The notes beneath the pieces were generated by a model. The model was not told the DNA's origin. It searched no databases and saw nothing but the letters and a program-made list of their open reading frames with translations. Shown one piece after another: positions 27,428 through 31,623 of a stretch of 64,000 nucleotides of DNA; position 1 is the stretch's first letter, and every line of letters starts with the position of its first letter. A program made the position numbers and the translations under genes. The stretch is from Desulfuromonas sp. SDB (GTDB lineage Bacteria; SDB-A). The DNA is taken from assembly GCA_001412365.1 (NCBI GenBank), contig LKUE01000319.1, positions 4,578 to 68,577 of the forward strand. The letters are read 5' to 3'.

Positions 27428-28243
27428 ATGAGTTCAGTTAGTTTTAAACGAAAACCAGTCAATTTAGCAGGCAGCCGGGTAGAGATTGGAGATAGTGCCC
27501 CACCGTTTAAAGCAATCAGCAATGATCTGAAATTATTTAAATTAACTGACTTAACTTCTGCTTATAAAATTATTACCAGTTTCCCCTCCCTGGATACTCC
27601 GGTTTGCGACCTGCAAGTAAAACAATTCAATCAGGATGCTGCTGAATTATCCGATGAAGTAACCGTGGTGGGGATAAGCAAAGACCTTCCCTTTGCCCAG
27701 CAGAGGTTTTGTTCCATGAATGAAATTAAAAATGTTCAGGTGGTATCAGATTACCGGTTTACTTCCTTCGGCTATCATTATGGAGTTTTAATCGAGGAAC
27801 TTAATCTCTTAGCCCGTACTGTTTTTATCCTGGATTCTAAAAATATAATTAGATACATTCAGATAGTAGATGAAATTACCCATCAGCCTGATTACCAGGA
27901 TGTTCTAGACAAATTAAATGAGATTATTTCTCAAACAAAGGAATCTGCCGACGCGGCAGCTTCTTCCGTTCCATTAAATAATATTCAGGATATTACCGGG
28001 CAATTTAAACGTTGGGAATTAAGCGACAATTTTAAAATAAAAGCTACTTTTATTTTGCCTCCTTCTAAATCACCCCGTTTTATGGTTAAAGCAATTTTGG
28101 TGATATCCGAACAATATGAAATTCAACCTTTTATGACTTACCAGGAAGATAAATTAGTTCTGGAATTGTCTGATTTAAAGGAAGTTGAGATTAACCAAAA
28201 TTTACTGAATTTTGTGAAAGCAGTTGACCGCCTTAAAATTTAA
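27428..28243 (+). CDS. tpx: Thiol peroxidase (Tpx) with C-terminal DcoH-like domain
   Basis: Residues 1-165 are an atypical 2-Cys peroxiredoxin of the Tpx type: peroxidatic Cys60 in SFPSLDTPVCDLQVKQFN, resolving Cys95 in FAQQRFCSMNEIKNVQVVSD, and the GVLIEELNLLARTVFILD strand. It should reduce hydrogen or alkyl peroxides with thioredoxin. Tpx normally ends near residue 165; here about 105 residues follow. Residues 180-271 (with Trp196 in KRWELSDNFKI and ending FVKAVDRL) fit the layout of pterin-4a-carbinolamine dehydratase (PCD/DcoH), but the catalytic HHP motif is replaced by EIQP. The fusion is the unusual point. The gene lies 13 bases after purA. Confidence 0.85.
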   Translation: MSSVSFKRKPVNLAGSRVEIGDSAPPFKAISNDLKLFKLTDLTSAYKIITSFPSLDTPVCDLQVKQFNQDAAELSDEVTVVGISKDLPFAQQRFCSMNEIKNVQVVSDYRFTSFGYHYGVLIEELNLLARTVFILDSKNIIRYIQIVDEITHQPDYQDVLDKLNEIISQTKESADAAASSVPLNNIQDITGQFKRWELSDNFKIKATFILPPSKSPRFMVKAILVISEQYEIQPFMTYQEDKLVLELSDLKEVEINQNLLNFVKAVDRLKI

Positions 28244-28893: not shown

Positions 28894-29679
28894 ATGGAAC
28901 TTTATAATAAATACCGGCAGCTTAAAGCTCTATTTGAGCAGATGGATGGAGCAATAATTGCTTATTCGGGAGGAGTGGACAGCACCTTAGTGCTGAAAGC
29001 AGGGCTGGATGTTATTCCCCGCAGGATAATTCCCGTAATGATATTTTCCGATGCTCAACCACTCGTTCAGTGGCAACGGGCATCAGCTGTTGCCCATCAT
29101 TTAGGAACCAGGCTGTTCTGTTTACATTTAGATCCATTGTCATTACCCCAAGTTCAAGCTAATAACAACCGCCGGTGTTATTTCTGCAAAAAACTAATAT
29201 TTGAAAATCTACGAAAACTTGCCCATTTGTTAAATATCCGGAATATCCTGGAAGGAACTAATGCTGATGACTTAAGGAGATACCGTCCGGGAAAGGATTG
29301 TTTAATTGAACTAAATGTCCGCAGTCCATTGGTGGAGACCAATTGGAGTTCACCGCAAATTAGAAAAATGCTGGAATTACTACACATCCCTAATTGGAAC
29401 ACTCCATCCCAATCTTGTCTGATTACCCGTATTCCCTACGGGCAAAAACCTACTGCACAGAGAATGTGGAGGGTTGAACAAGCGGAGGAATATATCAGAT
29501 CCCTGGGTATAGAGGTAGTCAGAGTTAGGGACCATGATCAGCTGGCTAGAATTGAAATATTAAGAGATGATTTTAATAAATTTTTTCATTATCAGATTTA
29601 CTCGGAGATAAATACAAACTTGAAAAAAATTGGCTACAGTTATGTAACTGTGGATTTACAACCTTACCACCCATGGTAG
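28894..29679 (+). CDS. larE: ATP-dependent sacrificial sulfur transferase LarE
   Basis: LarE converts the carboxylates of the LarB product to thiocarboxylates by giving up its own cysteine sulfur, on the way to the nickel-pincer nucleotide (NPN) cofactor. The PP-loop is YSGGVDSTLVLKAG at the N-terminus; NRRCYFCKKLIFENL and LEGTNADDLRRYRPG follow. Cys175 in SCLITRIPYGQ lies where the sacrificial cysteine is found (Cys176 in L. plantarum). The 261-residue length is standard. It is directly followed by larB and larC. Confidence 0.93.
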   Translation: MELYNKYRQLKALFEQMDGAIIAYSGGVDSTLVLKAGLDVIPRRIIPVMIFSDAQPLVQWQRASAVAHHLGTRLFCLHLDPLSLPQVQANNNRRCYFCKKLIFENLRKLAHLLNIRNILEGTNADDLRRYRPGKDCLIELNVRSPLVETNWSSPQIRKMLELLHIPNWNTPSQSCLITRIPYGQKPTAQRMWRVEQAEEYIRSLGIEVVRVRDHDQLARIEILRDDFNKFFHYQIYSEINTNLKKIGYSYVTVDLQPYHPW

Positions 29680-29683
29680 AGTT

Positions 29684-30439
29684 ATGAACCTTGATCTTTT
29701 AGAAAATATTTTACAGCAAGTGAGAGCAGGAAAATTACCGGTGGATAAAGCATTACAGGAATTATCAACATGGGGATACTTGGATCTTGGTTTTGCTAAA
29801 TTAGATTTAGACAGACAGAGAAGAGTGGGCTTTCCGGAAGTGGTTTACGGCAAAGGTAAAACGGTTGATCAGATAATTGAAATAGTTAAATCGCTTTATC
29901 AACATCATTCCATGGCAGTGGTTACCAAAGTTAATGAAGATATTGCCAGTTCACTAACTTCCTGCCAGCTTCCAGTGAAATATTACCATCAGGCAAAAAT
30001 AATTTTAGTGGGTGAACCTAGACCGGTAAAATCCCCTCCTGCGGTGGCGGTAATTACCGGGGGAACTGCAGATATACCTGTAGCTGAGGAAGCAGCAGTT
30101 ATTTGTGAAATTTATGGGAATGAAGTGGTGAGAATATATGACGCAGGAGTTGCTGGCATTCACCGTTTAATCAATAATTTAGAAAAGATAAACCAGGCGG
30201 GAATTATCATTGTGGTAGCGGGGATGGAAGGGGCATTGGGCAGCATTGTGGGCGGTCTGACTCCCCGTCCGGTAATTGCAGTTCCCACCAGTGTGGGATA
30301 CGGAGCTAATTTTCATGGATTAGCTGCTCTGTTAACTATGCTGAATTCCTGTGCTCCGGGAGTGGCGGTAGTAAATATTGACAATGGTTTCGGAGCGGGA
30401 GTTTTTGCAGCCATGGTCAATCAAGGATTAGTTAAATGA
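29684..30439 (+). CDS. larB: Nickel-pincer cofactor biosynthesis protein LarB
   Basis: LarB carboxylates and hydrolyses nicotinic acid adenine dinucleotide to pyridinium-3,5-dicarboxylate mononucleotide, the first NPN step. The C-terminal half is PurE-like: VAVITGGTADIPVAEEA, then YDAGVAGIHRL, VVAGMEGALGSIVGGL and PRPVIAVPTSVGYGANFHGL, ending VVNIDNGFGAGVFA. The N-terminus has VYGKGKTVDQI. The 251 residues match the family. It overlaps larC by four bases. Confidence 0.95.
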   Translation: MNLDLLENILQQVRAGKLPVDKALQELSTWGYLDLGFAKLDLDRQRRVGFPEVVYGKGKTVDQIIEIVKSLYQHHSMAVVTKVNEDIASSLTSCQLPVKYYHQAKIILVGEPRPVKSPPAVAVITGGTADIPVAEEAAVICEIYGNEVVRIYDAGVAGIHRLINNLEKINQAGIIIVVAGMEGALGSIVGGLTPRPVIAVPTSVGYGANFHGLAALLTMLNSCAPGVAVVNIDNGFGAGVFAAMVNQGLVK

Positions 30440-31623
30440 TTAAGGGGTATTTTCACTGTTTCTCCGGAGTTAGCGGAGATATGCTGGTGGGAGCTTTTCT
30501 AGATTCAGGGGTGGAATTAACTGAGTTGCAATCCGAATTATCTAAACTAAAACTGACCGGATATCGAATTTATTCAGAAAAGGTGCTGAAAAATGGACTG
30601 GGGGGCACTAAGTTTAAAGTAGAAGCGGCACAGGATCATCCCTTTCGGAATTTAAATGATATTCTTAATTTAATAGAACAAAGCGGTTTATCCAAGTCAG
30701 TTAAGCAAAAATCAGTAAAGACCTTTGAACTTCTGGGGGAAATAGAGTCGGGAATTCATGGTTGTGATATCGGAAAAATTCATTTTCATGAAATTGGAGC
30801 AGTGGATTCAATTATTGATATAGTAAGTGTTTTTATCTGTGATCAACTTTCAGGCATTGATCAGTATTACTGTTCAAAAATACATATTGGCACCGGTTTC
30901 ACCAATTGTGATCATGGTCTTATTCCCCTGCCCTCTCCCGCCACCTCTGCTTTATTGAGGGGACTGCCCACTTTTAGCCTGGGCATACCGGGGGAATTAG
31001 CTACTCCCACCGGCGCCGCCCTGTTGAAAATCTTAGTGGATGAGTTTGACCGTTATCCTGCCATGATTATAAAGGATACCGGTTACGGAGCAGGTTCCCG
31101 GGATTTAAAAACCCCCAATTTATTGAGATTGATAATTGGTGAATCAAGCGAAGATATGGCAGGCAATGGTTTTCAGACCGATCAGATTGTTTTAGTCCAG
31201 GCAAATATTGACGATATGAATCCTGAATACTACCACTTGGTTATGGATAAGCTGGAGCAAGCAGGGACAGTGGATGTATTTCTGGAACAGGTGATCATGA
31301 AAAATTCCCGTCCCGGAGTGATCTTGAATGTATTAGTAGAAGAACAAAATCTACTGCCGGTGGGTAATGTAATTCTCCGGGAAACGTCCACTTTTGGATT
31401 GAGATTCCAAAAGCTAAATAGATTTAAGCTGGTTAGAAAAATCAAAGAAGTGAAAACTGATTATGGTCCCATAAAAGTCAAACTAGGTTTAATTGGAGAT
31501 GATCTTATTAAAATTGCGCCTGAATACCGGGACTGCAGACGAATTTCAATTGAACATAATATACCTTTAGATGAAGTTTATCAATTGGCTAAAAGTAAAT
31601 TTAACCAGGAACATAAGATATGA
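30436..31623 (+). CDS. larC: Nickel insertion enzyme LarC (pyridinium-3,5-bisthiocarboxylate nickel chelatase)
   Basis: LarC is a CTP-dependent nickel cyclometallase that inserts Ni into the pincer ligand, completing the cofactor. The N-terminus shows YFHCFSGVSGDMLVGAFLD, then KIHFHEIGAVDSIIDIVSV, PLPSPATSALLRGLP, GELATPTGAALLK and TGYGAGSRDLKTPNLLRL; the C-terminal domain shows VQANIDDMNPEYY and DVFLEQVIMKNSRPG. In L. plantarum LarC arises by a ribosomal frameshift between two ORFs; here it is a single uninterrupted frame of 395 residues. It overlaps both larB and gmhA by four bases. Confidence 0.95.
   Translation: MIKGYFHCFSGVSGDMLVGAFLDSGVELTELQSELSKLKLTGYRIYSEKVLKNGLGGTKFKVEAAQDHPFRNLNDILNLIEQSGLSKSVKQKSVKTFELLGEIESGIHGCDIGKIHFHEIGAVDSIIDIVSVFICDQLSGIDQYYCSKIHIGTGFTNCDHGLIPLPSPATSALLRGLPTFSLGIPGELATPTGAALLKILVDEFDRYPAMIIKDTGYGAGSRDLKTPNLLRLIIGESSEDMAGNGFQTDQIVLVQANIDDMNPEYYHLVMDKLEQAGTVDVFLEQVIMKNSRPGVILNVLVEEQNLLPVGNVILRETSTFGLRFQKLNRFKLVRKIKEVKTDYGPIKVKLGLIGDDLIKIAPEYRDCRRISIEHNIPLDEVYQLAKSKFNQEHKI

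Follow-up and report, generated by a model that had tools for sequence, protein, structure and literature searches.

A Desulfuromonas thiol peroxidase with a PCD/DcoH-like C-terminal domain that lacks catalytic residues, and its fused relatives in other phyla

The protein P0001, encoded in a 64,000-nucleotide stretch of Desulfuromonas sp. SDB DNA (the window), is probably a working thiol peroxidase (Tpx) with a tail that has decayed from an active fusion of Tpx and pterin-4a-carbinolamine dehydratase (PCD) of anaerobes, and that now serves as a non-catalytic association or docking module. A probability of about 0.62 is assigned to this reading. The gene is present as a single copy, as judged by a search of the genome, and its features are listed in Table 1.

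Table 1. Position of the P0001 gene and of its domains and motifs in the window
Feature	Coordinates	Strand	Basis
Tpx-PCD-like fusion gene P0001, 271 aa	27428..28243 (stop included)	+	open reading frame, translation
Thiol peroxidase domain, residues 1-165	27428..27922	+	NF001808, PDB 2jsy, VIA 3p7x
T57-x-x-C60, peroxidatic cysteine motif (PSLDTPVC)	27596..27607	+	sequence; T57 and C60 invariant in alignment A3
C95, resolving cysteine	27710..27712	+	sequence; invariant in alignment A3
R130, conserved Prx active-site arginine	27815..27817	+	invariant in alignment A3
Linker, residues 166-181	27923..27970	+	model pLDDT <50 at 173-184; CxxC count
PCD/DcoH-like domain, residues 182-271, catalytic residues lost	27971..28240	+	profile, alignment, predicted α-β-β-α-β-β-α
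W196, conserved PCD tryptophan	28013..28015	+	invariant in alignments A2 and A3
EIQP, residues 231-234, opposite the catalytic GHHP of active PCD domains	28118..28129	+	alignment A3

By its sequence, the N-terminal domain of P0001 is a Tpx, that is, an atypical 2-Cys peroxiredoxin (Prx). Its match to NF001808 (E-value 5e-54) scores 182.2 bits, above the cut-off of 123 that qualifies a protein as Tpx. The nearest solved structure is PDB 2jsy (E-value 7e-41, 44% identity), and the P0001 model superimposes onto 3p7x with a VIA Z-score of 24.7. The Prx signature is complete, consisting of PxxxTxxC with C60, the arginine R130, and the resolving C95 about 35 residues downstream of C60. An earlier note on this DNA had taken Cys60 and Cys95 to mark a complete Tpx, which is borne out by the NF001808 score and by the presence of T57, C60, C95 and R130. 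P0001 resembles bacterial Tpx proteins (NF001808; PDB 2jsy, 3p7x, 3hvs) over the whole N-terminal domain, including both cysteines and the active-site Thr and Arg. The solved Tpx proteins, of about 165 residues, end where the tail of P0001 starts.

The open reading frame does continue for about 105 residues past the Tpx domain, with W196, FKIKATFIL (residues 202–210), EIQP and FVKAVDRL (residues 262–269) all found as had been described. The codon score of the extension in frame is 0.305, which resembles that of the Tpx part (0.27), and the other readings tested gave negative values (−0.41, −0.41 and −0.33); the extension is therefore coding, and in its own frame alone. Searches of Pfam and NCBIfam with residues 182–271 gave no match, and the gathering cut-off of PF01329 was not reached. 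As PF01329 is blind to this tail, a direct profile search alone would miss a kinship with PCD.

Extended Tpx proteins were sought in other genomes. None was found as a second copy in the family, order, class or phylum of P0001 (four genomes of the phylum), and a search of 193 bacterial genomes returned a single other one, in genome G127. The phylum of G127 (35 genomes) contains six extended Tpx of about 250 residues with a weakly similar tail (L036–L041). The same phylum includes P0003 (L042, 282 residues), which combines a Tpx with a canonical PCD tail (PF01329, E-value 7.4e-29; score 100 bits, cut-off 26). Among the intact fused relatives, the PCD domain also matches PDB 2ebb with an E-value of 9e-16. 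An alignment-based search of genome contigs yielded 14 further fusions of the same layout (L048–L061), one of them ending at a contig end. They are mostly labelled Candidatus Omnitrophota, with one Candidatus Loosdrechtia (Planctomycetota) and two Gammaproteobacteria. Matches covering the whole fusion, to residue 279–282 of P0003, occur in 48 of 384 Omnitrophota genomes as counted by hand from the match rows, and most other close Tpx matches in these genomes stop at the Tpx boundary. Scans of genome contigs and viral contigs with P0001 as single query returned nothing, and phage and plasmid records gave Tpx only, none covering 80% of P0001. No paper describing a Tpx-PCD fusion was found in the one literature library searched. 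The earlier proposal to look for other Tpx of about 270 residues was thus productive, with fusions of about 280 residues and an intact PCD domain in Omnitrophota and other phyla. Tpx-PCD is a new architecture built from two known families and, judging from these sequences, a recurrent one that exists in intact and decayed forms and is common in some phyla.

Two Gammaproteobacteria metagenome-assembled genomes (MAGs) encode a triple fusion of rhodanese, Tpx and PCD: L057:4653-5846, where all three domains are recognized by Pfam, and the open reading frame 4602-5846 of L061, which was assigned by eye. L052 has a separate rhodanese-like gene near the fusion. The rhodanese association hints at a link of Tpx-PCD with sulfur or persulfide.

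The 39 distinct intact PCD tails were used to build a profile, which matches the P0001 extension with 21.8 bits over 95 residues without gaps. Among 20,000 shuffled versions of the extension, the highest score was 15.0 bits; as the real score exceeds all of them, chance is excluded as the source of the resemblance to PCD. A profile built previously from 14 tails gave 16.7 bits, and 5,000 shuffled sequences scored at most 11.4. With hhalign, the tail matches those of intact fusions with an E-value of 2e-5 and 19% identity across 75 columns. In the MAFFT alignment, P0001 is gapless from residue 182 onwards against the intact fusions, apart from a single column that L067 introduces. A BLASTP comparison of the P0001 and P0003 tails found no match. 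The assignment of the tail to PCD is further grounded in the homologous fusions elsewhere, which hold an intact PCD domain at the same position. The suggested alignment of residues 180–271 with PCD without notable gaps is upheld by these results, and the profile check proposed with it had a divided outcome, PF01329 itself giving no match and the fusion-derived profile a positive one. The extension of P0001 thus shares descent with PCD domains.

The predicted structure of the tail consists of helix 184–192, strands 196–199 and 203–209, helix 216–230, strands 235–239 and 242–247, and helix 257–267. This is the α-β-β-α-β-β-α order of PCD, with a pLDDT of about 72–87 in most blocks. As real PCD domains sat in the input alignment, the model supports a PCD fold and does not prove it. 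A model of the tail from its single sequence had a pLDDT of 42 and was discarded, so that structure prediction reproduced the order of elements with the PCD-containing alignment and failed with the tail alone. Foldseek and VIA searches with the whole P0001 model gave only the Tpx domain and no PCD chain among the matches listed, and are uninformative on the tail. The model suggests that the tail has probably kept the PCD fold.

The active site is another matter. In alignment A3, the G-H-H-P of intact PCD domains is replaced by E-I-Q-P, the aromatic residue by Glu, the third His by Leu and the Asp by Leu, so that P0001 retains just the proline among the catalytic-motif positions aligned. The PCD consensus motif, reportedly from Naponelli et al. 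2008, was tested as [EDKH]-x3-H-[HN]-[PCS]...[YWF]...[HW]...D. It is absent from P0001 and present in P0003; with E or Q allowed at its first position, 37 of the 39 intact fusion tails contain it. HHP itself is found in all 39 intact fusions, and the loss of HHP pointed out earlier for P0001 is confirmed by this comparison. A C-x-x-C in the linker, likewise present in 39/39 intact fusions, is missing from P0001. Since the catalytic motif residues are replaced and this CxxC is missing, it is very unlikely from the sequence that the tail acts as a dehydratase by the known mechanism. In the intact fusions, the linker CxxC sits just before the PCD domain, often as CKPCEGG (for example in the L050 protein), and may have redox activity or bind a metal.

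In a tree of the Tpx domain with 44 rows, the fusions all fall on one side of a branch with 100/99 support, together with both decayed kinds and five unfused rows, and ordinary Tpx proteins fall on the other. The unfused rows can be explained by loss of the tail or by a fusion event that postdates the origin of the group. The unfused Omnitrophota Tpx L063, L064, L065 and L066 group inside the Tpx-PCD clade and may have lost the PCD domain. The terminal branch of P0001 is long (0.71). The second lineage with decayed tails, that of G127, comprises six genomes and is placed apart from P0001 by the tree, yet the AU test does not reject a common clade, and hence one origin, of both decayed tails (p-AU 0.11). 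In the closest pair of the G127 lineage, dN is 0.06 and dS 0.56 for the tail (dN/dS near 0.11), with the same ratio for the Tpx part (dN 0.08, dS 0.72); for most other pairs of this lineage, dS approaches saturation. The decayed tail of the G127 lineage is under purifying selection. In all likelihood, the fusion was first made with an active-looking PCD domain.

PCD is usually tied to aromatic hydroxylation (PMC9737128) or to molybdenum cofactor metabolism (PMC3223725). The fusion is the sole PF01329 protein in 11/11 genomes with an intact fusion, and no PF01329 protein above the cut-off was found in the P0001 genome or in the four decayed-lineage genomes tested. A role of the PCD domain in serving phenylalanine hydroxylase was discarded, as the biopterin-dependent aromatic hydroxylase (PF00351) is absent from all 16 genomes, that of P0001 included. 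A role for the molybdenum cofactor was also set aside, MoaC being present in just two of the 16, both with decayed tails. Several of these MAGs are incomplete, which makes single absences weak, but the overall pattern is consistent.

The genes neighboring intact fusions encode DJ-1/PfpI, rubrerythrin, flavodiiron protein, desulfoferrodoxin, ferritin, and iron/manganese superoxide dismutase; these are the genes with which anaerobes defend themselves against oxygen. Around the decayed G127 fusion (L005 1-3561), the genes look like those for ferritin/rubrerythrin, desulfoferrodoxin, AhpD-like and WrbA-like proteins, glutaredoxin and thioredoxin reductase. The neighborhood of P0001 comprises no oxygen-defence genes and no clear partner. 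Upstream is the adenylosuccinate synthetase gene (purA), with 13 bases between; downstream are a methyltransferase gene, then LarE-like, LarB-like and LarC genes. This arrangement suggests that purA, P0001 and the downstream genes form one transcription unit. The three Lar genes in a row (28894-31623) make up a nickel-pincer cofactor synthesis set; LarC (nickel insertion) was identified with an E-value of 2.5e-128, and the LarE-like and LarB-like names were read from the sequence, Pfam giving AIRC for the latter and no match for the former.

Several known systems resemble P0001 in part. The PCD/DcoH/PhhB family (PF01329; PDB 2ebb, 1ru0, 1dch) is fully matched by the intact fused relatives, to which the P0001 tail aligns without gaps; elsewhere, however, its members are free-standing enzymes, and the catalytic residues are gone from P0001. 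Plant RAF2 and carboxysomal acRAF contain a PCD-like domain that assembles another protein without pterin chemistry, but their partner is Rubisco, they have no peroxidase fusion, and kinship is taken at the level of the PCD family only. The Prx-nitroreductase fusion PDB 4eo3 and the nitroreductase-Tpx-like L128 and L129 also join a peroxiredoxin to a second enzyme domain; they differ in Prx class or domain order, and have no PCD. L128 (395-residue open reading frame, − strand) and L129 (396 residues, + strand), from two genomes of family f19, carry an apparent nitroreductase domain N-terminal to the Tpx. In L008, on the − strand from position 1967 down, a Tpx frame runs on into an apparent porphobilinogen synthase (HemB), with 598 codons open; either a true fusion or a sequence error may lie behind this frame.

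PCD proteins form dimers or tetramers. As PCD domains self-associate, the P0001 tail, having lost its dehydratase site, would probably have a structural or docking role. The peroxidase activity expected from the conserved residues would proceed by oxidation of C60 by peroxide and resolution by C95, after which an external thiol system would reduce the enzyme. The tail would descend from an active Tpx-PCD fusion enzyme, with the pterin site and the linker CxxC lost and the fold retained. It would form an association surface, joining Tpx dimers into a higher oligomer or docking them to a partner. The docking suggested in the earlier note involved a peroxide sensor; no result of the analysis marks P0001 as a sensor instead of an ordinary peroxidase. 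By analogy with the proposed role, Rubisco biogenesis depends on inactive PCD domains, according to a passage of PMC7714395 that cites Feiz et al. 2014 and Wheatley et al. 2014.

Other accounts of the tail were weighed against this reading. The tail might be a functionless remnant of the ancestral PCD domain, heading for loss; the unfused L063–L066 inside the fusion clade are consistent with domain loss, and the long end branch of P0001 also fits. Such a remnant would hardly show a frame open across about 105 codons with normal codon use, a gapless alignment and a retained hydrophobic pattern, and the parallel decayed lineage of G127 keeps its tail under purifying selection, so that this account appears unlikely. 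The decayed pocket might instead bind a pterin, folate or other ligand and tune the peroxidase, as the pterin site is kept in intact relatives and the Tpx-PCD link is old and recurrent. As nearly all PCD motif residues are replaced in P0001, a sensor of this kind is judged improbable, more so than a remnant. That the tail is an α/β extension unrelated to PCD and alike by chance would agree with the missing Pfam match and the empty BLASTP comparison with P0003. This last explanation is already largely refuted and has very little probability left, because the position and length of the tail equal those of the PCD domain of homologous fusions, and because the profile match is gapless and beats every shuffle.

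The function of the intact fusions is a separate question. Tetrahydropterins react with oxygen through 4a-peroxides, so that joining a peroxidase to a carbinolamine dehydratase would suit pterin repair. In anaerobes, the intact fusions might act in two steps to repair reduced pterins or folates damaged by oxygen, although this is a speculative proposal with a low chance of being right. In the first step, the Tpx domain would convert a tetrahydropterin 4a-hydroperoxide by reduction into its 4a-hydroxy form; dehydration by the PCD domain would then yield the quinonoid dihydro form, from which the reduced pterin can be regenerated. In the lineage of P0001, the second step would have been lost and the PCD-like domain kept for structure.

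Together, the recurrence of Tpx-PCD across phyla, its status as sole PCD in the genomes examined, its oxygen-defence neighbors and the mostly missing partner pathways point to an unassigned link of peroxide detoxification with pterin chemistry. If true, pterin repair would be a third role for PCD, beyond aromatic hydroxylation and molybdenum cofactor metabolism. The decayed fusions, such as P0001, offer a natural comparison for the function of PCD domains without catalysis.
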